From: Calothrix anomala FACHB-343
GTDB taxonomy: Bacteria > Cyanobacteriota > Cyanobacteriia > Cyanobacteriales > Nostocaceae
Direction of reading: 5' to 3'
Assembly (NCBI RefSeq): GCF_014696435.1
Contig: NZ_JACJQG010000039.1
Span: 21,607-85,606, forward strand
Length of the DNA: 64,000 nt
A program made the position numbers and the translations under genes. The notes below the pieces were generated by a model. It was not told where the DNA came from, did not search any database, and saw only the letters and a list, made by a program, of their open reading frames with translations. This document shows positions 15,831 through 55,727 of this stretch, in pieces. The stretch's first letter is position 1; each line of letters opens with the position of its first letter.

Positions 15831-16073
15831 ATGGAAAAGCGAAAAAGCAATTACGACAGTCATTTAGAAATTAACAGCTTAATTGATGATGCTGTCAATA
15901 ATGCGATCGCTCGCCGGAATCAAGAGTTAGATTCTGAAGATGCTTTGTTAGATGTATCTGATACAGAAGCTAGAAATATCGCAGGGGGTCTAGCATCTGT
16001 GAAAACAACAGGTTTAATTTTTAAACCTCCTATTATTGTTGGCATCATCATTGCCCCAATTGAAACTATTTAG
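15831..16073 (+). CDS. Double-glycine RiPP precursor without XYG motif
   Basis: The 80-aa peptide starts at ATG 15831, preferred over ATG 15807 because AAGGA (15818-15822) lies 8 bp upstream. The acidic leader with SDTEARNIAGG ends at Gly53. The hydrophobic core of 27 residues (LASVKTTGLIF, then KPPIIVGIIIAPIETI) has no Cys and no Tyr-Gly pair. The leader is not of the Nif11 type found in the next three precursors. It is followed after 31 bp by the Cys-rich protein gene, with which it may form a functional pair. Modification is unknown; export by a C39 transporter such as the one at 24917 is plausible. Confidence 0.72.
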   Translation: MEKRKSNYDSHLEINSLIDDAVNNAIARRNQELDSEDALLDVSDTEARNIAGGLASVKTTGLIFKPPIIVGIIIAPIETI

Positions 16074-16104
16074 CCGTAAGATTCTCTTTGCCGAGGCTTA
16101 ATGC

Positions 16105-16542
16105 ATGGAAAATATTGCTGCTGAAAAAACTACACTTTGCCCCAGTGCTAGACCTGAATCTGAGGATAGTGTAATTTTCGGCATCATCAGTGGAACAGTG
16201 GCAGAACCCCGTGTGGCTTATTTAAAACAGCCACAAAAACTCACAAATGAACTGATAGCTAAAGCTAGCCCCATTACACCAGCTGAAATTTTTCGTACAG
16301 CTGCACCTTGTGCTACAAAAGGTTGTCAGCATTTTGATGGACAAGATTGTCGTTTAGCTACACGCATTGTCCAAAAATTACCTGCGATCGCCCAAGAATT
16401 ACCCCCTTGTGCTATCCGCCGAGATTGTCGCTGGTGGAAGCAGGAAGGTAAAGCAGCTTGTATGCGTTGTCCTCAAGTAATTACAGATAACTATAATCCC
16501 TCTGAGCTAGCAATTGAAGTAGCAACACCAACTGTTAGTTAA
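16105..16542 (+). CDS. Cys-rich protein of unknown function in the RiPP locus
   Basis: The 145-aa protein has eight Cys. Seven cluster in the C-terminal half in the order APC-x4-C-x7-C, PPC-x5-C-x10-C-x2-C, with the segments CQHFDGQDCRLATRIV, RRDCRWWKQEGKAAC and RCPQV. The spacing suggests an Fe-S cluster or zinc-binding module. No signal peptide is present. I do not recognise the family with certainty. Its position between the non-Nif11 precursor and the Nif11 precursors suggests an accessory or maturation role in the RiPP locus, possibly in electron transfer to the radical SAM enzyme (inference). Confidence 0.7.
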   Translation: MENIAAEKTTLCPSARPESEDSVIFGIISGTVAEPRVAYLKQPQKLTNELIAKASPITPAEIFRTAAPCATKGCQHFDGQDCRLATRIVQKLPAIAQELPPCAIRRDCRWWKQEGKAACMRCPQVITDNYNPSELAIEVATPTVS

Positions 16543-16630
16543 GCAAATCTATAGGTATGAGTTTGACTTTTGCAACAAAAATGTCCTCATCCTCATAGAA
16601 ATAGTAATTCAGTGATTTTAGGAGCAGATT

Positions 16631-16951
16631 ATGTCATTAGAAAATGTTAGAGCTTTCTACGAAAGACTAGCATCTGATGAAGCTTTCCGTAGCCAAATTC
16701 AAGGTATTGACAGCAAAGAAGCAGGCAGAGAACTTTTGCAGAACTCCGGTCTTAATTTTAGCCAAGCAGAATTTGAAGAATATACAGAATATTTGTTAGA
16801 AACAAATGCGGCTACTGATGAAGATTTAAAAGACTTAGATGCCAACGAATTAGAAGCTGTATTTGGTGGAGCTATACCTGTGATTTTCCCTGGTATACTG
16901 CCAATTTTGATGTATGGAGTTGTCATCAGCAGAATTGGGTTAACTTTCTAA
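16631..16951 (+). CDS. Nif11-leader RiPP precursor with MYG splice motif
   Basis: The 106-aa precursor has an SD of AGGAG 7 bp before the ATG. The Nif11-type leader (MSLENVRAFYERLASDEAF, then FSQAEFEEYTEYLL) ends at ELEAVFGG, residues 73-80. The 26-residue core contains PILMYGVVISRIG, with MYG at 94-96. XYG is the recognition site of PlpXY-type spliceases, which excise tyramine from the Tyr and leave an alpha-keto-beta-amino acid (family knowledge). Three such precursors precede the radical SAM gene. The leader is nearly identical to that of the next precursor, indicating tandem duplication. Confidence 0.88.
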   Translation: MSLENVRAFYERLASDEAFRSQIQGIDSKEAGRELLQNSGLNFSQAEFEEYTEYLLETNAATDEDLKDLDANELEAVFGGAIPVIFPGILPILMYGVVISRIGLTF

Positions 16952-16971
16952 TTTTTTATTAGGAGCAGATT

Positions 16972-17277
16972 ATGTCATTAGAAAACGTCAGAGCTTTCTA
17001 CGAAAGGCTAGCATCTGATGACGCTTTCCGCGTGCTTCTTCAAAGCTTTGATACCCAAGATGCAGGTAGAGAAATTCTGCAAAATGCAGGTTTTAACTTC
17101 ACCAAAGAAGAATTTGAAGAATATACTGCTCAATTATTAGATTCTGAGAATGAACTTCAAGATATAGATGCAGCAGAACTAGCATCTGTAGTTGGTGGAT
17201 TAGTTGGATTTTATCCCAGACTTTACTTGATTTATGGAGCGCCAAGTCCTCTTTGGGATCACACAAACCTCTTCTAA
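16972..17277 (+). CDS. Nif11-leader RiPP precursor with IYG splice motif
   Basis: The 101-aa precursor is only 20 bp after the first and has the same TTAGGAGCAGATTATG translation start. The leader ends at ELASVVGG (Gly76). The 25-residue core contains YPRLYLIYGAPSPLW, with IYG at 87-89. The Pro- and aromatic-rich core is unlike that of precursor 1, whereas the leaders are close copies, the usual pattern of leader conservation and core diversification. Confidence 0.87.
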   Translation: MSLENVRAFYERLASDDAFRVLLQSFDTQDAGREILQNAGFNFTKEEFEEYTAQLLDSENELQDIDAAELASVVGGLVGFYPRLYLIYGAPSPLWDHTNLF

Positions 17278-17330
17278 TCAAGAGTTCAGTTATTACACAT
17301 TCGACTGAGACAATCACTTATAAATCTTGC

Positions 17331-17362
17331 TGACAGTCAACAGTCAACCGTCAACCGTCAAC
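17331..17362. repeat. STRR heptamers between RiPP precursors
   Basis: CAGTCAA and CCGTCAA units upstream of the third Nif11 precursor. Confidence 0.88.
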
Positions 17363-17379
17363 AATCCAGGAGTTATTTT

Positions 17380-17730
17380 ATGTCCTTAGAACATGTAAAA
17401 GAATTTTACCAAAAGCTAGCAAATGATGAGGCTTTCCGTAATCAAATGCAAGCTGTTGAAACCAAGGATGAATGTAGCCAAGTTGTCAAAAGTGCTGGCT
17501 TGAATTTCACTCAAGAAGAATTTGAAGAATATACAACTCAATTACTAGAATCCAATGCTGACAGTGAACTCCAAGATTTAGGAGAAAAAGAACTAGAAGC
17601 AGTTTTTGGTGGCTTTTTAGGCAAGCCTATAATCCGCCCTCTATATGGAGTTGTTGTCTGGCCTCCTATTAAATGGCCCCCTATTTATCCTCAGCCCTTA
17701 TATGGAGTTGTCATAAATGATGAAATTTAA
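17380..17730 (+). CDS. Nif11-leader RiPP precursor with two LYG splice motifs
   Basis: The 116-aa precursor has a Nif11 leader (MSLEHVKEFYQKLANDEAF) ending at ELEAVFGG (Gly78). The 38-residue core has an internal duplication: RPLYGVVV and QPLYGVVI, with LYG at 88-90 and 107-109, separated by a Trp/Pro-rich stretch (WPPIKWPPIYP). Two tyramine excisions in one product would be predicted. It is preceded by CAGGAG 11 bp before the ATG and lies 176 bp upstream of the radical SAM start. Confidence 0.88.
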   Translation: MSLEHVKEFYQKLANDEAFRNQMQAVETKDECSQVVKSAGLNFTQEEFEEYTTQLLESNADSELQDLGEKELEAVFGGFLGKPIIRPLYGVVVWPPIKWPPIYPQPLYGVVINDEI

Positions 17731-17769
17731 CAAGGCTAAATAAAAAGCTGATATTTACCGAAAAGAAAA

Positions 17770-17864
17770 AATATAGCAATCCTAAATAATTTTTGAAATT
17801 TTGCCAGCTTTGACAGTCAACAGTTAACAGTCAACAATCACAACAAAAATAGGATTGCTATATT
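17770..17864. repeat. Small inverted-repeat element containing STRR
   Basis: AATATAGCAATCCTA (17770-17784) and TAGGATTGCTATATT (17850-17864) are perfect 15-bp inverted repeats. They flank about 65 bp that include CAGTCAA/CAGTTAA heptamers (17815-17837). It sits between the last precursor and the radical SAM gene. A single end of the same kind occurs at 4775-4788. Confidence 0.7.
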
Positions 17865-17905
17865 TATTTCCCCTTTAGAGAAATTGATTGAGGGAGTTAA
17901 CGCTA

Positions 17906-19162
17906 ATGACCTATCGCAGAATTAGTTATGCGGTTTGGGAAATCACTTTAAAATGTAATCTTGCTTGTCAGCACTGTGGTTCTCGCGCCGGTCATACAAG
18001 AACTAAAGAACTATCCACCGCCGAAGCCCTAGATTTAGTCAAACAAATGGCGGAAGTTGGAATTACAGAAGTAACAATAATTGGTGGTGAGGCTTTTCTG
18101 CGTCCCGATTGGCTAGAGATAGCCCAAGCAATTACCAAAGCGGGAATGCTTTGTGGTATGACTACTGGGGGCTATGGTATCACTCTAGACACAGCCCACA
18201 AAATGAAGGAAGCTGGAATTAATGTAGTTTCTGTGTCTGTTGATGGCTTAGAAGCAACCCACGATCGCATTCGTGGTAAACAAGGTTCATGGCAATGGGC
18301 ATTTAAAACCATGAGCCATCTTAAACAAGCCGGAATTCCCTTTGGCTGCAATACCCAAATTAATCGCCTATCTGCACCAGAATTTCCCCTAATTTATGAG
18401 CATCTACGCGACGCGGGAATCTTTGCTTGGCAAATTCAATTGACTGTACCGATGGGGAATGCAGCCGATAATAGCGAGATTCTGCTGCAACCTTATGAAC
18501 TCCTAGATGTATACCCGATGATAGCGCGTGTTGCGCAACGAGCTAAACAAGAAGGCGTACACTTACAGCCAGGAAATAACATCGGCTACTACGGCCCTTA
18601 TGAACGCTTTTTACGGGGTGGCGATGCTTGGTCTTTTTGGCAAGGTTGCAGTGCAGGATTGGCGGCTTTAGGAATTGAAGCTGATGGCGCGATTAAAGGT
18701 TGTCCTTCATTGCCAACTACAGCATACACCGGTGGAAATATCCGCGATCGCTCTTTGCGCAGTATCATCGAAGAAACCGAAGAACTGCGGTTTAATCTCG
18801 GCGCTGGTACACCCAAAGGTACAGAACATTTGTGGGGTTTCTGCAAAACTTGCGAATTTGCAGAACTATGTCGAGGTGGTTGCAGTTGGACTGCACATGT
18901 CTTTTTTGACAAACGAGGTAACAATCCCTACTGTCATCATCGCGCCCTGACTCAAGAAAAACAAGGCATCCGCGAACGAGTATTTTTGCAACGTCAAGCC
19001 AATGGCGAGCCTTTTGATAATGGGGAGTTTGCATTGATTGAGGAACCGATTAATGCACCTTGGCCAGAAAACGATCCCCTCCACTTTACTGCTGACTGCA
19101 TTCAATGGCCAGAAGGTTGGCAAGCAGAATTAGAACTCGTTCCATCTTTAGTAAAAATTTGA
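17906..19162 (+). CDS. Radical SAM/SPASM protein, candidate splicease (PlpX-like)
   Basis: From the ATG at 17906, preceded by GGGAG, the protein has 418 aa; a TTG at 17888 would add six residues. The radical SAM cluster motif is CNLACQHC (C-x3-C-x2-C, Cys17/21/24), with GGEAFLR and a TIM-barrel region. The C-terminal part has SPASM-type cysteines: FWQGCSAG, IKGCPSL, GFCKTCEFAELCRGGC and NPYCHHR. Located directly after three XYG-bearing precursors, it fits the PlpX role, excision of tyramine from the backbone. Other SPASM enzymes make thioethers or epimerise residues, but the cores contain no Cys, which favours splicing. Confidence 0.85.
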   Translation: MTYRRISYAVWEITLKCNLACQHCGSRAGHTRTKELSTAEALDLVKQMAEVGITEVTIIGGEAFLRPDWLEIAQAITKAGMLCGMTTGGYGITLDTAHKMKEAGINVVSVSVDGLEATHDRIRGKQGSWQWAFKTMSHLKQAGIPFGCNTQINRLSAPEFPLIYEHLRDAGIFAWQIQLTVPMGNAADNSEILLQPYELLDVYPMIARVAQRAKQEGVHLQPGNNIGYYGPYERFLRGGDAWSFWQGCSAGLAALGIEADGAIKGCPSLPTTAYTGGNIRDRSLRSIIEETEELRFNLGAGTPKGTEHLWGFCKTCEFAELCRGGCSWTAHVFFDKRGNNPYCHHRALTQEKQGIRERVFLQRQANGEPFDNGEFALIEEPINAPWPENDPLHFTADCIQWPEGWQAELELVPSLVKI

Positions 19163-19176
19163 TTTATCAGCATAAT

Positions 19177-19368
19177 ATGCCCAGTGATTATATACCTCCA
19201 GTAGAATCATCTATTAATCAATCTCCAATTGAGTTAGACTCTCAAGAACCGTTGTTACCTCGTTTAGCTTGGAATAGTCAAATAGCTTATTTGCGAGTAA
19301 TCTTCAAAGCCAAAAAAGCTTTAGACCGTATTGAAAAAGAAGCAGGTTTTACGCCAATATCTAACTAA
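19177..19368 (+). CDS. Small protein after the radical SAM gene, candidate splicease partner (PlpY-like)
   Basis: The 63-aa protein begins at ATG 19177, 14 bp after the radical SAM stop, and is probably co-transcribed and coupled to it. It has an acidic N-terminal part (PPVESSINQSPIELDSQE) and a basic helical C-terminal part (RVIFKAKKALDRIEKEAGF). Spliceases are known to need a small partner protein (PlpY) encoded next to PlpX. This gene has the right position and size, but I cannot confirm homology by eye. A longer frame from 19105 overlaps the radical SAM gene and is less likely. Confidence 0.62.
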   Translation: MPSDYIPPVESSINQSPIELDSQEPLLPRLAWNSQIAYLRVIFKAKKALDRIEKEAGFTPISN

Positions 19369-20671: not shown

Positions 20672-20827
20672 ATGGCTAACATCACAATTCAAAACCTAGA
20701 TGCTCAGAATCTGGCAATTGTTGAATTGGATAACAATCAACTTAACGAAGTTAAGGGCGGTTGTCCTATCTGTATTCCTGTATTATTTGGTATTGGTCTA
20801 GCTGCTGGCTATCTTCTCAACAGATAA
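20672..20827 (+). CDS. Double-glycine bacteriocin-like peptide, type A, copy 1
   Basis: The 51-aa peptide follows the SD AAGGAG. The 30-residue leader ends NQLNEVKGG. The 21-residue mature part is CPICIPVLFGIGLAAGYLLN plus R. It has a C-x2-C at its start and a GLAAG (GxxxG) motif in a hydrophobic helix. The leader fits C39-peptidase processing, and the exporter at 24917-27667 has such a domain. It forms a pair with the 52-aa peptide that follows 43 bp later. Confidence 0.8.
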   Translation: MANITIQNLDAQNLAIVELDNNQLNEVKGGCPICIPVLFGIGLAAGYLLNR

Positions 20828-20870
20828 TTCTGAACTTATCTACTACCATTTTTGAATTGTAGGACTTACC

Positions 20871-21029
20871 ATGACAGTAATTACCATTAACGACATCAAC
20901 CGTAGCAATTATCTGGTTGATTTAACAGATAACGAGACTGATGCAACCCGTGGTGGCTTTATACAATTTGTTGCTGCTTTTTGGCTGGGTTATAAAATAG
21001 GCAAAGAAATTGCCCGATTAACTGAGTAA
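20871..21029 (+). CDS. Double-glycine bacteriocin-like peptide, type B, copy 1
   Basis: The 52-aa peptide has a leader ending NETDATRGG (Gly29). The mature part starts FIQFVAAFWLGYKIGKEIA and contains GYKIG, a GxxxG motif. Together with the type A peptide it has the layout of a two-peptide (class IIb) bacteriocin: two adjacent small double-glycine genes, each with a GxxxG in a membrane-active helix. The SD is weak (TGTAGGACTTACCATG). An intrinsic terminator follows at 21115. Confidence 0.78.
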   Translation: MTVITINDINRSNYLVDLTDNETDATRGGFIQFVAAFWLGYKIGKEIARLTE

Positions 21030-21114
21030 TATTAAATTAAATACAGACATAGTAAAGTTGCCAGTATTACTAAGCTTTTTTGCTTTTAGGTCTACTTTCA
21101 TTGTCTAAATTAAT

Positions 21115-21145
21115 AAAACCCTCTGAAAATTTTCGAGGGTTTTTT
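21115..21145 (+). terminator. Rho-independent terminator of peptide pair copy 1
   Basis: AAAACCCTC at 21115-21123 pairs with GAGGGTTTT at 21135-21143, followed by more T. Confidence 0.85.
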
Positions 21146-21412
21146 CATGAAGAATTAAGTTTGTTTTAATATGAAAAGCTGCGAAACAATGATTATGCAG
21201 TATTGTAGATAAGTTGAAAGCGGAATATACAAAATTAGGGCTTATGCCACTGGTGCATATCATCTAGTCGGCAAAGGAAGGCTTTATAATTAGAGCCAGT
21301 GGCTTGCAGAAAAAAGGCTTAATGTGCAGCCTCACAGAGAATTAGTATCAGCCATAAAAACATTAAATTAATAACTGTACCTATTTTGTTCCATGATGTA
21401 TTACCTAAAATA
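21146..21412. other. Intergenic region between peptide pairs 1 and 2
   Basis: No gene was found. GCCACTGG (21246-21253) and CCAGTGGC (21296-21303) form an 8-bp inverted repeat around 42 bp. A sequence at about 21323-21350 resembles one terminal repeat of the element at 22235-22419, possibly a solo remnant. Confidence 0.45.
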
Positions 21413-21442
21413 TTGACCAGATAAAACAACTAAGAGAATAAT
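21413..21442 (+). promoter_or_regulatory. Candidate sigma-70-type promoter, peptide pair copy 2
   Basis: TTGACC (21413-21418), an 18-bp spacer and AATAAT (21437-21442), in the same context as the copy 1 promoter. Confidence 0.6.
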
Positions 21443-21505
21443 ACATACGGATGAACAAAATATCATCTTCGACAAAGAATTTAACCCAAGAAGGAGAAAT
21501 TACAA

Positions 21506-21658
21506 ATGGCTAATATCACAATTCAAAACCTAGATGCTCAGAACCTATCAATTGTTGAATTGGATAACAATCAACTGAACGAAGTTAAGGGCGGTTGTCC
21601 TATCTGTATTCCTCTATTATTTGGTATTGGTCTAGCTGCTGGTTATCTTCTTAACTGA
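21506..21658 (+). CDS. Double-glycine bacteriocin-like peptide, type A, copy 2
   Basis: The 50-aa peptide has the same leader as copy 1 except for one residue (Ala15 to Ser). The mature part CPICIPLLFGIGLAAGYLLN lacks the final Arg and has V-to-L at one place. The SD AAGGAG and upstream 140 bp are duplicated from copy 1. Confidence 0.8.
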   Translation: MANITIQNLDAQNLSIVELDNNQLNEVKGGCPICIPLLFGIGLAAGYLLN

Positions 21659-21704
21659 TAATTCTGAACTGATCTACTACCATTTTTGAATTGTAGGACT
21701 TACC

Positions 21705-21869
21705 ATGACAGTAATTACCATTAACGATATCAACCGTGCCAATTATCTGGTTGATTTAACAGATAACGAAACTGATGCAACTCGTGGGGGTTTTATACAA
21801 TTTGTTGCAGCTGTTTGGCTGGGTTATGAAATAGGCAGAGAAATTGCAATTCTGACTAAAAGAAGATAG
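21705..21869 (+). CDS. Double-glycine bacteriocin-like peptide, type B, copy 2
   Basis: The 54-aa peptide has a leader ending NETDATRGG. The mature part begins FIQFVAAVWLGYEIGREIA and ends ILTKRR. GYEIG preserves the GxxxG motif. It differs from copy 1 mainly at the C-terminus. Confidence 0.78.
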   Translation: MTVITINDINRANYLVDLTDNETDATRGGFIQFVAAVWLGYEIGREIAILTKRR

Positions 21870-21875
21870 TGCTGT

Positions 21876-21995
21876 CTGGCAATAATTTTTGAATTAAATA
21901 ACAATCAACTAGAGGAATTTAAGGGTATTTATTCAATCTGTATTCCTCTATTATTTGCCGTTGGTCTAGTTGCTTGCTATTTTCTTAAGCAATAA
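21876..21995 (+). pseudogene. Decayed type A double-glycine peptide, copy 3
   Basis: An open frame with no start codon encodes 39 residues aligned to type A: LNNNQLEEFKG, then IYSICIPLLFAVGLVACYFL. The cleavage Gly-Gly is now Gly-Ile, the first Cys is lost, and the GxxxG has become G-LVA-C. The leader's N-terminus is absent. It is a pseudogene between type B copies 2 and 3. Confidence 0.8.
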
Positions 21996-22037
21996 TTCTG
22001 AACTTATCTATTACCATTTTTGAATGGAGGATTTACC

Positions 22038-22199
22038 ATGACATTAATTACCATTAGCGATATCAACCGTGCTAACTATCTGGTTGATTTAACAGATAAC
22101 GAAACTGATGCAACTCGTGGTGGTTTCATCCAAGCAATTGCAGCGCTTTGGCTTGGTTATGAAATAGGTAAAGAAATTGCAACACTGCTCAAAAGATAG
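22038..22199 (+). CDS. Double-glycine bacteriocin-like peptide, type B, copy 3
   Basis: The 53-aa peptide has the SD TGGAGG. The leader MTLITISDINRANYLVDLTD ends NETDATRGG. The mature part FIQAIAALWLGYEIGKEIA ends TLLKR, and the GxxxG (GYEIG) is intact although its type A partner has decayed. It could still pair with type A peptides from copies 1 and 2. Confidence 0.77.
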   Translation: MTLITISDINRANYLVDLTDNETDATRGGFIQAIAALWLGYEIGKEIATLLKR

Positions 22200-22478: not shown

Positions 22479-23216
22479 TTAGTCTAATATTAGTTCAATT
22501 TCAAATTGGTCAATTTGTTTCTTGAGCCATTCTGCAAACAACTCTGTAATAATCTTGTAACGCAACTTATCATCTAAAATTGGTTGAATAATTTCTTCTA
22601 CAAGAATTAAGTGGTATCCCTGAGAATTGACAATTGGCTTGAGGATTTGTGGTGGATTAGCAGCAAAAACAGCAGCAGAAATTTCCGGTTTCATGTCCTT
22701 CCGTCTGACTATTCCTTGATATCCGCCAGAGCGTTTTAATTCAACATCTTGGATATATTTGTGAGCTACATCATGGAAGCTAATTTCATCTTCTTTAATG
22801 GCGTAAAAAAGTTCCAGTGCTAAATCTTCACTATCCAAGATGACTTGGTACATAACTGCGGCAGAATAATCTAATTGATGTTCAAAAAAGTAAGGCTCCA
22901 CTTGCTCGCTAAATAAATGAGCAGCTAACTTTCCAGAAATGAGGCTGCTGTAAACTATGTTTTCAAAATCTTCTAAAGATAAACTATGTTTTTCTAACCA
23001 CTTCCATGTATCATCAGCGCTATCAAGGTTATTAACTAAACGTATTTGATCTGCTGCGTGCTGAAGTTCTTTTGGTTCAATTGTAATACCAGCTTCTACT
23101 GCGCTAGATATAATTACTTTCCGACTAATAATTTGCTCAATTACTTCAGGAATCTTGCATGATAACTTAATTTCACGCAGAATATCTTCCTTGATAATGG
23201 TGATATTTTGTGACAT
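22479..23216 (-). CDS. Parvulin/SurA-type peptidyl-prolyl isomerase of the export operon
   Basis: The 245-aa protein has an N-terminal SurA-like helical part (about 1-110) and a PpiC-type rotamase domain (about 118-215) with FHDVAHKYIQDVELKRSGGY and PQILKPIVNSQGYHLILVEE. No signal peptide is visible, so it would act in the cytoplasm on substrates before export. It is the last gene of an operon with HlyD and ABC exporter genes; in such operons PPIases probably keep or fold peptide or RTX substrates for type I secretion (inference). A GGAG-type SD precedes the ATG. Confidence 0.85.
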   Translation of the reverse strand: MSQNITIIKEDILREIKLSCKIPEVIEQIISRKVIISSAVEAGITIEPKELQHAADQIRLVNNLDSADDTWKWLEKHSLSLEDFENIVYSSLISGKLAAHLFSEQVEPYFFEHQLDYSAAVMYQVILDSEDLALELFYAIKEDEISFHDVAHKYIQDVELKRSGGYQGIVRRKDMKPEISAAVFAANPPQILKPIVNSQGYHLILVEEIIQPILDDKLRYKIITELFAEWLKKQIDQFEIELILD

Positions 23217-23280: not shown

Positions 23281-24804
23281 CTATAGTTTTAAGCCACCTT
23301 GTTGCAATTTTTTAAACGGATCGAGTAGAAAATCACTAATCCGGCGTTGGCGGACAATAACTTCGGCTGTTGCTGTATCTCCTGGATTTAAGGGAATACA
23401 TTTATTACCAGAAGAAATACAATTTTGTTTTAAACTAATTTCTAAGTTATAGGCTGCAACTTTACCATTAGGTGTATCCACCTCTGTAGTAGTAGGCGAA
23501 ATTTTAATTAATTCCCCCGATACAACACCATAATCCTGAAATGGGTAAGCATCAAATTTTAATTTAACTGGCAATCCTTTTTGTAAAAAACCACTTTCGG
23601 TAGTTGCCATTTGTGCCCGGATAATTAAAGGTGAATCTAAAGGTGCAATTTCTGCCATCATTGTTCCTGATTGCACTACAGAGCCAGCTTTTTGAATTGG
23701 CAACTGAAACAGTTTACCATTCACAGTTGCTTTAATTTCTCGTTGTCCTAATTGAAATTTTAATGATGTAATCTGACTTTTGGTTTGAGCAATTTCTGCT
23801 TGGAGAGAAGCAATTTCTGTATCTAAGTTCTTTTGCTGTTCTGTAATTTTTAACACAGCTAACTTACCGGAACGCATTAAGGTTTGATAACCTCTTTCTT
23901 GTTCTTTGAGTCGCAATTCTGCTTGTTCAATATCTGCACTAATTTGGCGAATATTGCGCTCATAGCTACTCTGCTGTTCTGTTAAACGTAACTTAGCTTG
24001 TGCGATATCTGATTTACTTTGTTCGTATAATTTTTGCTTGTCTTTTGCTAAATCTTGCTTTTCTACAAGGTTAATTTCGGGAATAATTCCTTGTTGTTTT
24101 AGCTTGTTATAACGTTCCACCTCTCGCTGAGTACTAGATAAAGTACTCTCCATCAAATTACTTACAATTCGGCTGTGTTCAAGAGTTTGTCGCGCTTGAT
24201 TAACTTGAGCTAATCTCTCGTCTTTCTGTAATGTATAGGCATTTTTTAATGTAAGAATATTTTGTCTTGCTTGGTCAACTTGAGCTTGTTTTTCTAACTG
24301 TTGCGATTGGTTTTGTTGTTGTTGAGTTGTTAAAGATACAATTAACTGATGTTTAGCAGAATTTAACTGCGAAAGTCGATTTAATTGTCCTTCTAATTTA
24401 TCTTGAACCTGGCGTAGTTCAGCTTTAACTAATTCTGATTCTAATAATAATAAAGTTTGTCCAGATTTAACTAATTCACCCTCTTTAACTCGAATTTCGG
24501 CAACAGTTCCAGCCACAGGAGCATCGAGTTTAATTGTCTGATCTTGAGGCTCAATACGCCCTCTAGCTGTGCCAGTTTCATCAACTTTAGATAATACTGC
24601 CCAAGGTAAAATTATTGAGACAAAAATGACTAAAAAATATAACAATCCTCTTGTCCAAACTTGGGGAAGGCTTTCGAGAGATTCTTTTGTAATTTCAGCC
24701 CAGTCATCTCTTTTGATTACTGGAGATGGTGTTACTAAAGTTTCTGTATGGGGTTTATCTGTTATTATGGAATTTTTGACCCTACCATTTAATACATCTG
24801 TCAT
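23281..24804 (-). CDS. HlyD-family periplasmic adaptor (membrane fusion protein)
   Basis: The 507-aa protein has one TM segment at about 54-72, a biotinyl-lipoyl-like half (VAGTVAEIRVKEGELVKSGQ), a long alpha-helical hairpin (about 130-345, Gln-rich coiled coil), then the second lipoyl half and a beta-barrel (VKLKFDAYPFQDYGVVSGEL). The C-terminal part ends with TATAEVIVRQRRISDFLLDPFKKL, typical of HlyD. It bridges the ABC exporter to an outer-membrane channel, which is not encoded here. It lies 112 bp after the ABC gene and 64 bp before the PPIase gene. Confidence 0.93.
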   Translation of the reverse strand: MTDVLNGRVKNSIITDKPHTETLVTPSPVIKRDDWAEITKESLESLPQVWTRGLLYFLVIFVSIILPWAVLSKVDETGTARGRIEPQDQTIKLDAPVAGTVAEIRVKEGELVKSGQTLLLLESELVKAELRQVQDKLEGQLNRLSQLNSAKHQLIVSLTTQQQQNQSQQLEKQAQVDQARQNILTLKNAYTLQKDERLAQVNQARQTLEHSRIVSNLMESTLSSTQREVERYNKLKQQGIIPEINLVEKQDLAKDKQKLYEQSKSDIAQAKLRLTEQQSSYERNIRQISADIEQAELRLKEQERGYQTLMRSGKLAVLKITEQQKNLDTEIASLQAEIAQTKSQITSLKFQLGQREIKATVNGKLFQLPIQKAGSVVQSGTMMAEIAPLDSPLIIRAQMATTESGFLQKGLPVKLKFDAYPFQDYGVVSGELIKISPTTTEVDTPNGKVAAYNLEISLKQNCISSGNKCIPLNPGDTATAEVIVRQRRISDFLLDPFKKLQQGGLKL

Positions 24805-24916: not shown

Positions 24917-27667
24917 CTAGTTTAATCCTTGAAATTGCTGTTGATTGAGGTAAAAATAATGCCCGCGTTTCACCATTAATTCTGCATGGGTTCCACTCTC
25001 GATCAATACGCCTTTGTCTAGTACCAAAATCATATCGGCATTTTGTACAGTAGAGAGTCGATGAGCAATCACTAAGGTAGTTCTTCCCTTAAGAATAGTG
25101 TTTAAGTTTTGCTGAATAATTTTTTCTGACTCTGTGTCTAAGTGGGAAGTAGCCTCATCTAAAATAAGCAAGCGAGGATTACCTAATAAGGCTCTAGCTA
25201 TAGCTATGCGCTGTCGTTGTCCGCCAGATAATAACCCACCACCTTCACCAATTTGGGTTTCATATCCCATTGGTAATTTTTTAATAAACTCATCAGCACC
25301 CGCTAATTTTGCTGCTTCGATCACTTCGCTTAAAGGTGCGCCGGGATGTCCTAAGCTAATATTTTCGCGAATGGTTCCACCAAATAAAAATGTATCTTGG
25401 TCAACTACGCCTACTTCTTGGCGTAAGGAACGCAGGGAAATACTAGTAATATCTTGTCCATCAATGAAGACTTTGCCATCTGTAGGGGGATATAAGCCTA
25501 AAACTAGCTTAGAAATAGTAGTTTTTCCAGAGCCGCTACGCCCTACCAGTGCTACCATTTGTCCAGTTTTGATTTCAAAAGTGAGATTTTCTAAGATATT
25601 AATATCACTTTCTGGGTGATAGCGGAATGTAACATTTTCAAAGCGAATATTGCCTTGAATATATGGTAAATTCTGTCGTGCTTGGTGTTGTAAATCTTCC
25701 TCTGGTTCTGTATCCAGAACATCATTAATCCGTTCTACAGCAATCACTACTTCTTGCAATTGATTCCACAAGACAATTAAGCGTTGGAAAGGGGTAATAA
25801 TATTGCCTAAAAGCATATTAAAAGCTACCAACTGCCCAATAGTTAGCTGGTTTTCAATTACCAAATGTGCCCCAAACCATAGCAAGGCGGTTGTAACTAT
25901 TGCTTCAATGGCATTGCTGAAAATTTGCAGGCGATTACTGATAACTTGTCCAGAAAAGTTAGTTTTTATTTCTTTATTTAATAACTCTTCCCAATGCCAA
26001 CGAACTGTATGCTCTACTGCTGTAGCTTTCACAGTTCTAACACCAGTTAGAGCTTCGATTAAGTAACTGCTTTCATTGGCTACAGCATTAAAGATTTCGC
26101 GGGAAATTCTTTGTAAAAAAGGCGTGGCAATTAATGCTAATAAAGCAAACGGCGGTACAATTACCAACACTAGCAACGCCATTTTCCAACTGTACCAAAA
26201 CATTAATCCTACATAGATAAATACTGTGAGTAAATCTAGGAGGATAGATAATGCTTCACCGGAAAGGAAGCGTTGAATTTTACGGTTTTCTTGAACGCGC
26301 GAGATTATATCCCCTACATAACGGGACTCAAAAAAACTCAAGGGTAAACGTAAGGTATGGCGGATAAAACCAACGATTAGTGCCAAGTCTATACGATTGG
26401 CTGTGTGGTCTAGCAGATATTGCCGCAAACCTGTCATTGCTACTCGAAACAGGCTAAAAATCAGCAATCCGATACCAACAGCAGTTAAGGTGAGTTGCGA
26501 TCGCTGTACAACTACTCGGTCTAAAATTAACTGGGTAAATAGGGGTGTAATCAGCCCAAATATCTGGATAAATACCGAAGCAATCAATACTTCCAGCATT
26601 ACCAAACCGTGAGGCTTGAGTAACTCAAAGAATTGCCAAAAGGGGGTAGAGGTTTCTTTGGCATCTTTAAGCATAGCTGTAGGTTGCAGCAGCAATGTAT
26701 AACCAGTCCAGCCTGCTTGGAACTCTGCATGAGTGAGGGTGCGTTGTCCAATACCAGGGTCGGCAACTATGACATGTTTCTGGGTAATTTCGTAGACTAC
26801 AATGTAATGTTTGCCTTCCCAATGGACAATTGCAGGTAATTTTTGCTTGGCTAACTGATTCAGACTCGCCTTGACAGGTCTGGTTGCAAAACCTAAACTT
26901 TCCGCCGTCGTTAACAAACCCCGCAATGATGCGCCATTACGGTCTACATTGGCGATATCCCGCAACCGATTGACGCTAAAGCGTTTACCCCAATAGCGAG
27001 ACACCATCACTAAACAAGCTGCACCGCAGTCTGATGCACTTTGCTGGGCAAAAAATGGATAGCGGCGAGTCACTCTTTGCCATAAATGCCCAACTTGCTG
27101 AGTAGGTTTGGGAAAATAGGCTTTACTAATCTTTTTTTGTGGTGGTTCTGGAGTAGAGATTGCAGAAATAGCTGTTTGATGATTTGGAGTTGATGGGTAG
27201 GCGTAGCCAGTCGTGGACATCGCAGTTACAGGTGAGTTATCTGTGTCTTCTTGAAGAGAATTGCGAGATAACGCTGTTTGCCACAAATGCTGCCTAATTT
27301 CAGGATAATTAGCCATCAATGGTTGCAACAACTCACCAGGAATAAAGCACAACTGCAAATTTATCGAAGCCCTAGCAGCATAAGGTTTTAACTCAGCCTC
27401 CGGAAACAAAGTAAATTCCCCAAATGAATTTCCGGACTCCAAAGTGGTGATTAACTCACCTACATTGTCAAGCAACCTCACCTTACCGGCAATCACAATA
27501 TAGATACCTGGTTCAGCGTCAGTTCCTTGCCAAAACTTACCAACTTTGGGGTTGAGAAATTTAACTTGTTGCAAACATTGTTGAAATTCTGTCTCGGAAA
27601 GTGAGTACCCCAAAATATTGCTGAATTGTTCCAGAGACACTAACAGATCTGATAGATTTTGCACCAT
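24917..27667 (-). CDS. Peptidase-containing ABC exporter with N-terminal cNMP-binding-like domain
   Basis: Domain order over 916 aa: cyclic-nucleotide-binding-like domain (about 10-115, with SGNSFGEFTLF), linker, C39 peptidase (about 205-335; Cys214 in SASDCGAACLV, His287 in GKHYIVV, Asp303 in VADPG), six-TM domain (about 350-640), and ATPase (about 675-915: VGRSGSGKTT, LSGGQRQRIAIARALL, LLILDEATSHLD, VIAHRLST). The peptidase dyad is intact, so it can cut double-glycine leaders while exporting. The architecture resembles cyanobacterial HetC. The peptides at 15.8-22.2 kb are the obvious candidate substrates; the RTX giant upstream is an alternative. Confidence 0.93.
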   Translation of the reverse strand: MVQNLSDLLVSLEQFSNILGYSLSETEFQQCLQQVKFLNPKVGKFWQGTDAEPGIYIVIAGKVRLLDNVGELITTLESGNSFGEFTLFPEAELKPYAARASINLQLCFIPGELLQPLMANYPEIRQHLWQTALSRNSLQEDTDNSPVTAMSTTGYAYPSTPNHQTAISAISTPEPPQKKISKAYFPKPTQQVGHLWQRVTRRYPFFAQQSASDCGAACLVMVSRYWGKRFSVNRLRDIANVDRNGASLRGLLTTAESLGFATRPVKASLNQLAKQKLPAIVHWEGKHYIVVYEITQKHVIVADPGIGQRTLTHAEFQAGWTGYTLLLQPTAMLKDAKETSTPFWQFFELLKPHGLVMLEVLIASVFIQIFGLITPLFTQLILDRVVVQRSQLTLTAVGIGLLIFSLFRVAMTGLRQYLLDHTANRIDLALIVGFIRHTLRLPLSFFESRYVGDIISRVQENRKIQRFLSGEALSILLDLLTVFIYVGLMFWYSWKMALLVLVIVPPFALLALIATPFLQRISREIFNAVANESSYLIEALTGVRTVKATAVEHTVRWHWEELLNKEIKTNFSGQVISNRLQIFSNAIEAIVTTALLWFGAHLVIENQLTIGQLVAFNMLLGNIITPFQRLIVLWNQLQEVVIAVERINDVLDTEPEEDLQHQARQNLPYIQGNIRFENVTFRYHPESDINILENLTFEIKTGQMVALVGRSGSGKTTISKLVLGLYPPTDGKVFIDGQDITSISLRSLRQEVGVVDQDTFLFGGTIRENISLGHPGAPLSEVIEAAKLAGADEFIKKLPMGYETQIGEGGGLLSGGQRQRIAIARALLGNPRLLILDEATSHLDTESEKIIQQNLNTILKGRTTLVIAHRLSTVQNADMILVLDKGVLIESGTHAELMVKRGHYFYLNQQQFQGLN

Positions 27668-54239: not shown

Positions 54240-55727
54240 CTACCAGATTTTTTCCAAAAGATGAAATGCTTCTTGAGGATTTAAAGAGCCTTCTAGGTTT
54301 TTATGTAGTGTTTGTCGATATTGCAGCCATTCTGAGCTTTCTCTCTCAGTTAGAGGCTTTAAGTGTTTTACTGGCACTTGTTGTCCGCATAATATAGTTA
54401 AATAACCATCTATTTCAAAAATGCTAGATTTAGGGATAAGATGAGCGATCGCGCGACAAACTCCACTATCTTGATAAAGTTCTACAAGATTTTGTACAGA
54501 TCCCAAATCAGTTTTTTCTTGGCAATACTTCCAAAAAGGCGTGTCTAACTTACGGTTAAACTTAAAATGCAGGGTTAAAAAATCACAAATCTCATCCCAT
54601 AAATCAGCAACATACTGATTGGTAGCATTGATTAACTTGGGAGTTGGACGAAGATTGCTATCTTGTAAAGCTAGCACTACTCGCCAAATAGTTTCAACAA
54701 TCATGTGCTGACCTGTAGATTCTAAAGGTTCTACAAATCCCGAAGCATTACCAATTGCAACGACATTATTAACCCAAAACCTTCTATATCTCCCTGACTT
54801 AAAGGAGATTTTTCTTAAGTCATCAGTTGCCTCAGGGGTAAGGCTTAAATATTCTTGAATAGCTTCGTCTTGAGTACAGAAACTAGAAGAGTAGACATAT
54901 CCAAAACTGACTCGTTCTCTTAAGTCGATTCGCCAACGCCAGCCAGAATTCATAGTTGTTGCTGTTGTAAATGGAAAAATTGGCGATTGGCGTTTCCAGT
55001 TGCCGACTATTGCAGAATCACAAAAAAGGCGATGGCTAAAAGAGATAAATTCTTCCTTTAATACTCCCCTAAGAAGTTGTGATTTAAATCCCGAACAATC
55101 TATAAATAAATCTGCCTCAATCTTTAAATCATCTTCACAACAAAGATATTGCACATTTCCCTGCTCATCTAATTTGGCATCAATAACTTCCATTTCTTGA
55201 ATATCAACGCCTAAAGATGATGCTTTCATCGCTAGATATTTTATAAATTCATAAACATCTATATGATATCCAAAACCATCAGCCAGTATTTTAATATTGC
55301 CCTGACCATCATGTAATAATGGTGAATGTTGCCTATCCATGAGGATTGAATATCTGCTAGCTTGCCTCATGTCATGCATACAATAAAACCCTGGAGTTTT
55401 ACTGAGAGATTGTGAATCATATCTAAATTGCCGATCAAATGTGTAGTTAAAATGAGCAATATTGGGTACTCCCCATTCAAATTTAATTCCCAATTTCCAT
55501 ACTGGCCATATTGATTTATAAAATTCTTCTTGGGGAATATTAAGATGTTCGTGTAAAAATTGAGGAAACCAGGCTGTTGTAGACTCGCCTACGCCTATTG
55601 CTGCGTGCTTTCGACTATATATTAGTAAGACCTGAAGCTGAGGGAAAAAGTGTTTTAATGTTACTGCTGACAACAAGCCTGCACTACTTCCGCCAACAAT
55701 AGCAACTCGTTTGATGTCAATATTCAT
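54240..55727 (-). CDS. Flavin-dependent (tryptophan-type) halogenase
   Basis: The 495-aa protein has an FAD-binding N-terminus (VAIVGGSSAGLLSA), GVGESTTAWFP, the conserved Lys region VWKLGIKFEWG that in this family holds the hypohalous-acid lysine, a SGWRWRIDL segment (the halogenase W-x-W-x-I-P motif with Asp in place of Pro) and GNASGFVEPLESTGQHMI. Halogenases of this type chlorinate or brominate Trp or other aromatic substrates using FADH2 from a separate reductase, which is not encoded here. It stands alone, so its substrate is unknown; aromatic residues of the Trp-rich peptides at 17 kb are a possibility only. Confidence 0.87.
   Translation of the reverse strand: MNIDIKRVAIVGGSSAGLLSAVTLKHFFPQLQVLLIYSRKHAAIGVGESTTAWFPQFLHEHLNIPQEEFYKSIWPVWKLGIKFEWGVPNIAHFNYTFDRQFRYDSQSLSKTPGFYCMHDMRQASRYSILMDRQHSPLLHDGQGNIKILADGFGYHIDVYEFIKYLAMKASSLGVDIQEMEVIDAKLDEQGNVQYLCCEDDLKIEADLFIDCSGFKSQLLRGVLKEEFISFSHRLFCDSAIVGNWKRQSPIFPFTTATTMNSGWRWRIDLRERVSFGYVYSSSFCTQDEAIQEYLSLTPEATDDLRKISFKSGRYRRFWVNNVVAIGNASGFVEPLESTGQHMIVETIWRVVLALQDSNLRPTPKLINATNQYVADLWDEICDFLTLHFKFNRKLDTPFWKYCQEKTDLGSVQNLVELYQDSGVCRAIAHLIPKSSIFEIDGYLTILCGQQVPVKHLKPLTERESSEWLQYRQTLHKNLEGSLNPQEAFHLLEKIW

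Follow-up and report, generated by a model that had tools for sequence, protein, structure and literature searches.

The 64,000-nucleotide stretch of Calothrix anomala FACHB-343 DNA analysed here (contig NZ_JACJQG010000039.1, positions 21,607 to 85,606; hereafter, the window) comes from a genome assembled into 144 contigs totalling 9.24 Mb. On its forward strand, positions 16631–19368 encode three precursor peptides with Nif11-type leaders, followed by a 418-residue radical S-adenosylmethionine (SAM)/SPASM protein and a 63-residue protein. All five open reading frames (ORFs) are open in the window. They very probably form a spliceotide biosynthetic cluster of the PlpXY type, with the following members.

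16631..16951, forward strand: precursor A1, Nif11 leader, core AIPVIFPGILPILMYGVVISRIGLTF with one MYG; TIGR03798 42.2 bits (cut-off 32.3), PF07862 44.7 bits
16972..17277, forward strand: precursor A2, Nif11 leader, core LVGFYPRLYLIYGAPSPLWDHTNLF with one IYG; TIGR03798 49.6 bits, PF07862 46.7 bits
17380..17730, forward strand: precursor A3, Nif11 leader, core FLGKPIIRPLYGVVVWPPIKWPPIYPQPLYGVVINDEI with two LYG; TIGR03798 53.8 bits, PF07862 56.8 bits
17906..19162, forward strand: predicted catalytic subunit of the splicease, a PlpX-like radical SAM/SPASM protein with CNLACQHC; TIGR04103 846.4 bits (cut-off 725)
19177..19368, forward strand: predicted splicease partner, PlpY-like, 63 residues, LLPRxAW...AKKALDRIE motif; homologues at all 79 related loci

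An earlier sequence-only reading of this DNA had described three Nif11-leader precursors carrying MYG, IYG and two LYG motifs. Such ORFs occupy 16631–17730, and the leaders of A1, A2 and A3 all score above the TIGR03798 and PF07862 cut-offs. When the cores are read after the double glycine (GG), the locus contains four Xaa-Tyr-Gly (XYG) sites, namely MYG, IYG and LYG twice. The cores were said to have no Cys, Ser or Thr pattern fit for lanthionine or sactionine chemistry. No Cys was found in A1, A2 or A3; a single Ser and a single Thr occur in both A1 and A2, and neither residue in A3. A ribosomally synthesized and post-translationally modified peptide (RiPP) with Cys-based thioethers (sacti-, ranthi- or lanthipeptide) was rejected because of the Cys-free cores. 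XYG was found in none of the three other small Nif11 peptides of the same genome, which served as a control; the fourth Nif11 match is a 509-residue frame that is not precursor-like and contains two YG. The locus had been thought to start at 15831. The cluster itself begins at 16631, and 15831 is the ATG of a separate GG peptide (15831–16073), which the earlier reading leaves unmentioned together with the protein that follows it (16105–16542). By eye, short GTCAACA-like repeats were seen between the cluster genes at 17330–17370 and 17811–17845. Repeats of this kind are common in Nostocales.

The CNLACQHC radical SAM/SPASM protein and the 63-residue protein, which the same reading had placed after the precursors, correspond to ORFs 17906–19162 and 19177–19368. 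The former has 418 residues from its ATG; the ORF list gives a 424-residue frame starting at an upstream TTG. It was compared with TIGR04103 (nif11-class peptide radical SAM maturase 3), an equivalog model, and among the best 25 of 82 NCBIfam matches this was the only family whose cut-off was exceeded. TIGR04103 is presumably the same as IPR026482. The latter is the InterPro entry to which PlpX is assigned in a passage of a review (PMC11002830). Membership in TIGR03913 was rejected, since the score of 420.3 bits is below the cut-off of 591.75 bits, and the remaining families among these 25 scored at most 160 bits. Four proteins of the own genome matched TIGR04103, and the 17906–19162 product was the sole one above the cut-off. 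PDB sequences matched only as general radical SAM proteins, SkfB being the best (E 2.8e-20). The nearest relative of the enzyme is 97.6% identical, and the closest named relative is that of Tolypothrix sp. FACHB-123 (98%).

For a direct comparison with plp, the published PlpA3 core was turned into a search pattern; of 388 genomes of the order, one matched (G307, locus L154). We infer from its sequence that this genome is Pleurocapsa sp. PCC 7319. Over 405 residues, the window enzyme and its PlpX-like counterpart in this genome share 76.5% identity; an alignment of the two has 315 identical positions in 421 columns, and 12 of 13 Cys columns are common to both. The partner protein has 63 residues from the ATG at 19177; the ORF list gives an 87-residue frame from an ATG at 19105. 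It is 30% identical to the 56-residue PlpY-like protein of G307 (BLAST E 1.3e-5). A profile of the partner family, built without the 56-residue protein, retrieved that protein with an E of 4.2e-13 as the sole match among 86 ORFs of the G307 locus. The proposed PlpA/PlpX/PlpY layout is thus borne out by the TIGR04103 score, by the identity to the PlpX-like protein and by the partner profile. Comparison of the 418-residue protein with PlpX and of the 63-residue protein with PlpY, which had been suggested as a check, gave homology in both cases; the grouping of the enzyme relative to epimerases and thioether-forming enzymes was judged from family-model scores, not from a tree holding them.

The radical SAM protein could be a different maturase (thioether-forming, epimerase or TIGR03913-type), with XYG as a recognition motif for another reaction. 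Scores against TIGR03913 (420 bits) and other SPASM maturases indicate a common ancestry with the window enzyme. However, passing the cut-off of TIGR04103 alone among the best 25 of 82 matches, the absence of core Cys, the homology of both proteins to their PlpX-like and PlpY-like counterparts, and the conservation of XYG across the family make this explanation very improbable.

The conservation of XYG was examined in a scan of genome contigs, which gave 224 relatives of the enzyme; the best 80 were kept and represent 79 distinct loci. In most of them, at most a few hundred bases separate the partner gene from that of the enzyme. Nif11 precursors were present in 74 of the 79 loci and at least one XYG precursor in 73. 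Of the 124 cores with 8 or more residues (126 precursor ORFs minus two leader fragments of L046, whose cores are shorter), 121 contain XYG, compared with a mean of 22.7 and a maximum of 36 in 1000 rounds of shuffling. Gly follows Tyr at 207 of 318 core Tyr residues but only at 5 of 253 leader Tyr residues. Therefore, XYG in the cores is not a matter of chance. By type, the core sites are LYG (94), MYG (57), IYG (18), AYG (9), VYG (8), PYG (6) and others (15).

A tree of 79 enzyme sequences, made up of 77 distinct sequences from the loci and those of the window and G307, was rooted at its midpoint. The midpoint split separates 17 rows with the PlpX of G307 from 62 rows with the window, and both forks are starred. 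Since precursors with XYG are present in both halves, splicing would be best placed before the split of the two enzyme clades.

Several observations weigh against a spliceotide assignment. The enzyme of the window and the PlpX of G307, whose branch is long, belong to different main clades of a tree without an outgroup, and the identity of G307 as Pleurocapsa sp. PCC 7319 is itself our reading of its sequence. No Nif11 precursor was found in 5 of the 79 loci; a contig end lies no more than 600 bases from the enzyme start in L052, L054 and L055, but not in L036 and L041. XYG is missing from 5 of the 126 precursor ORFs. These are the two leader fragments of L046, a short ORF of L024 (a site there may be obscured by the choice of cut point), and single peptides of L066 and L069, loci that also encode peptides having XYG. 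Genes of the downstream exporter cassette described below were seen in only 16 to 29 of the 79 related loci, counted within locus flanks of at most 6 kb, many of them shorter.

Even so, we consider a spliceotide cluster of a known and common kind to be the best explanation of the locus, with a probability of about 94%, because of the TIGR04103 equivalog match, the 76.5% identity to the PlpX-like protein, the homology of the partner to PlpY and the XYG motif in 121 of 124 cores. The enzyme and its small partner would excise the tyramine part of Tyr at the XYG sites, possibly at all four of them, from the precursor backbone, and the ends would be rejoined. Each splicing event would cost about 135.07 Da; for cores cut after GG, the computed masses would fall from 2798.65 to 2663.59 Da (A1), from 2951.54 to 2816.47 Da (A2) and from 4385.47 to 4115.34 Da (A3). 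Removal of the leader after GG would follow, perhaps through the C39 peptidase of the downstream exporter, and then export of the product. As to what the product may do, the splice moiety is named in connection with protease inhibition in a passage of the review cited above (PMC11002830).

A spliceotide may be encoded here but no longer made, which would be compatible with the identity of the cluster. The splicease system is sometimes lost in relatives: three enzyme genes have internal stops (G080, G124 on C304, and G129), and enzyme fragments alone remain in L126. However, the five open ORFs of the window, the 97.6% identity of the enzyme to its nearest relative and the Cys columns shared with the prototype-like enzyme make a silent cluster unlikely.

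The products had been expected to be new peptides. The exact peptide sequences are new, but the type of cluster is already described. An enzyme match with an E of 1e-100 or better was found in 78 of 193 genomes of the family (88 hits). Four of these hits (49 to 52% identity), which may be of the TIGR03913 kind, were set aside, leaving 84 splicease genes in 77 of the 193 genomes. A spliceotide rule exists in antiSMASH 6, according to part of its description (PMC8262755), and the label is used as a category in a passage of a Microcystis survey (PMC11264947). The kind is therefore already established by the antiSMASH rule, by the earlier literature and by its presence in 77 of 193 family genomes.

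Downstream of the cluster, the reverse strand carries a probable export cassette.

22479..23216, reverse strand: PpiC-type peptidyl-prolyl isomerase, probable export cassette, possible part in the pathway; PF00639; 29 of 79 related loci
23281..24804, reverse strand: HlyD-type membrane fusion protein, probable export cassette, possible part in the pathway; PF13437; 20 of 79 related loci
24917..27667, reverse strand: ATP-binding cassette (ABC) exporter with a C39 peptidase and a cyclic nucleotide monophosphate (cNMP)-binding domain; PF03412, PF00664, PF00005, PF00027; 16 of 79 related loci

From its domains, the product of 24917–27667 is probably an exporter that cuts GG leaders. The cassette may cut the precursors after GG and export the spliceotide product. 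The small GG peptides encoded at 20672–22199 are nearer the cassette and may be the real cargo of the exporter. They occur as repeats next to the C39 cassette, with MANITIQNLDAQNL... present twice and MTVITINDIN-like sequences three times. One ORF of 7864 residues, which is repeat-rich and, by eye, has GGxGxD-like calcium-binding stretches near its end, spans 28920–52514 and probably encodes a giant secreted protein. A tryptophan halogenase family protein (PF04820, 343 bits) is encoded at 54240–55727.

The least explained part of the region is the pair of genes upstream of the precursors.

15831..16073, forward strand: GG-leader peptide of an uncharacterised family, lacking YG, of doubtful relevance to the pathway; homologues at 37 of 79 loci
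16105..16542, forward strand: 145-residue Cys-rich protein, uncharacterised, part in the pathway doubtful; homologue in 39 of 79 loci

The core of the GG peptide is hydrophobic and of the IxGIIIA type. The peptide has no Nif11 match, nothing above the NCBIfam and Pfam cut-offs, and none in PHROGs. A pMurE match in NCBIfam (E 0.041, far below the cut-off) was taken as chance, as was a single PHROG match (E 0.0028), in which no individual stretch passed. A pattern xG[LI][IV]x, picked after viewing the sequences, occurs in 31 of 37 peptide cores, compared with 1.7 in shuffles. The Cys-rich protein has eight Cys residues, all invariant in 32 aligned relatives; it has no NCBIfam or Pfam match, and its family profile gave no matches in the PDB up to an E of 1. 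At the splicease loci, the GG peptide lies within 700 bases upstream of 35 of the 39 Cys-rich genes.

The two upstream genes could belong to spliceotide biosynthesis: the peptide might, for instance, be an additional substrate and the Cys-rich protein its dedicated helper. The Cys-rich gene was found in 80 of the 193 family genomes, in 87 copies, some of them weak fragments, and 46 of the 87 have a splicease gene no more than 8 kb away. Across the 193 genomes, both systems, the pair only, the splicease only and neither were found in 58, 22, 19 and 94 genomes, respectively (Fisher p 4e-15, not corrected for relatedness). However, 41 of the 87 copies are not near a splicease gene, and 22 of the 80 genomes gave no splicease hit. 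Of the 84 splicease genes, 46 have the Cys-rich gene beside them and 38 have none within 8 kb, although contig ends may hide some, and YG occurs in 0 of the 37 peptide cores. The pair as an obligate part of the pathway was rejected because of the 41 copies away from a splicease, and we regard membership in general as unlikely.

The 27 Cys-rich copies away from an intact splicease that were examined have a GG peptide upstream in 19 cases. A HopA1-like and a kinase-like gene lie together beside 9 of the 27 copies, as checked with Pfam for the L121 pair only. HopA1 and kinase proteins of this kind mark class V lanthipeptide dehydration. The link to class V lanthipeptides is in line with the title and the start of the abstract of an earlier paper (PMC9486802). 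C39 exporters are also found beside the pair in other cyanobacteria. In our view, the two genes are a peptide system of their own, one frequently carried along with RiPP loci. Complete independence is made less likely by 4 of the 27 copies, near which pieces of a spliceotide cluster persist (enzyme fragments in L126; also L131, L134 and L150). Tentatively, the pair may represent an undescribed cyanobacterial ribosomal peptide system that recurs beside splicease and HopA1/kinase genes and may share their exporter.

Backbone-splicing chemistry is unusual and useful; ketoamides serve for labelling, as stated in a passage of an earlier report (PMC10533398). The present locus offers four natural sites, including an IYG site and a two-site precursor. 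The part with the potential for new findings is the conserved upstream pair.

Among the known systems, the GDL-motif peptide maturases of TIGR03913 are related SPASM enzymes, below whose cut-off the window enzyme falls (420 compared with 591.75 bits). The closest characterised counterpart of the cluster is plp. In G307, read in the direction of transcription, a precursor is followed by a 485-residue protein, by precursors with AVAAMYGVVFPW and PIRPLYGLPI, by a 419-residue TIGR04103 protein (824 bits) and by a 56-residue protein, an order consistent with a description of plp in part of the review (PMC11002830). One precursor ends with PIRPLYGLPI and another contains AVAAMYGVVFP; these PlpA2/PlpA3-like cores match the published splice tags in a passage of PMC10533398 and published substrates of Pleurocapsa PCC 7319. 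Neither the PlpA2/PlpA3 motifs nor a record named Pleurocapsa PCC 7319 was found among the 79 related loci. From its place and size, the 485-residue protein is read as PlpD. A homologue of it is absent from the genome of the window, in a search in which G307 itself matched as a positive control, and an epimerase companion of the window enzyme was rejected, none being found in this genome. The epimerase PlpD (a PoyD-type radical SAM enzyme) is an optional companion and does not define spliceotides.

The window resembles the G307 locus in having Nif11-type precursors with LYG or MYG that immediately precede the genes of enzyme and partner on the same strand, in its 76.5% identical enzyme and in its homologous partner. 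It differs from G307 in its three precursors, all with Nif11 leaders, in its IYG site, in its two-site precursor and in the C39 exporter cassette downstream, whereas the first precursor of G307 was read by eye as nitrile-hydratase-type. The locus of Tolypothrix sp. FACHB-123 (L001) has no listed ORF that matches A1, unlike the window. However, its enzyme is 98% identical, the A2 core is identical, the A3 core is identical except for one residue, and the upstream pair is also there.

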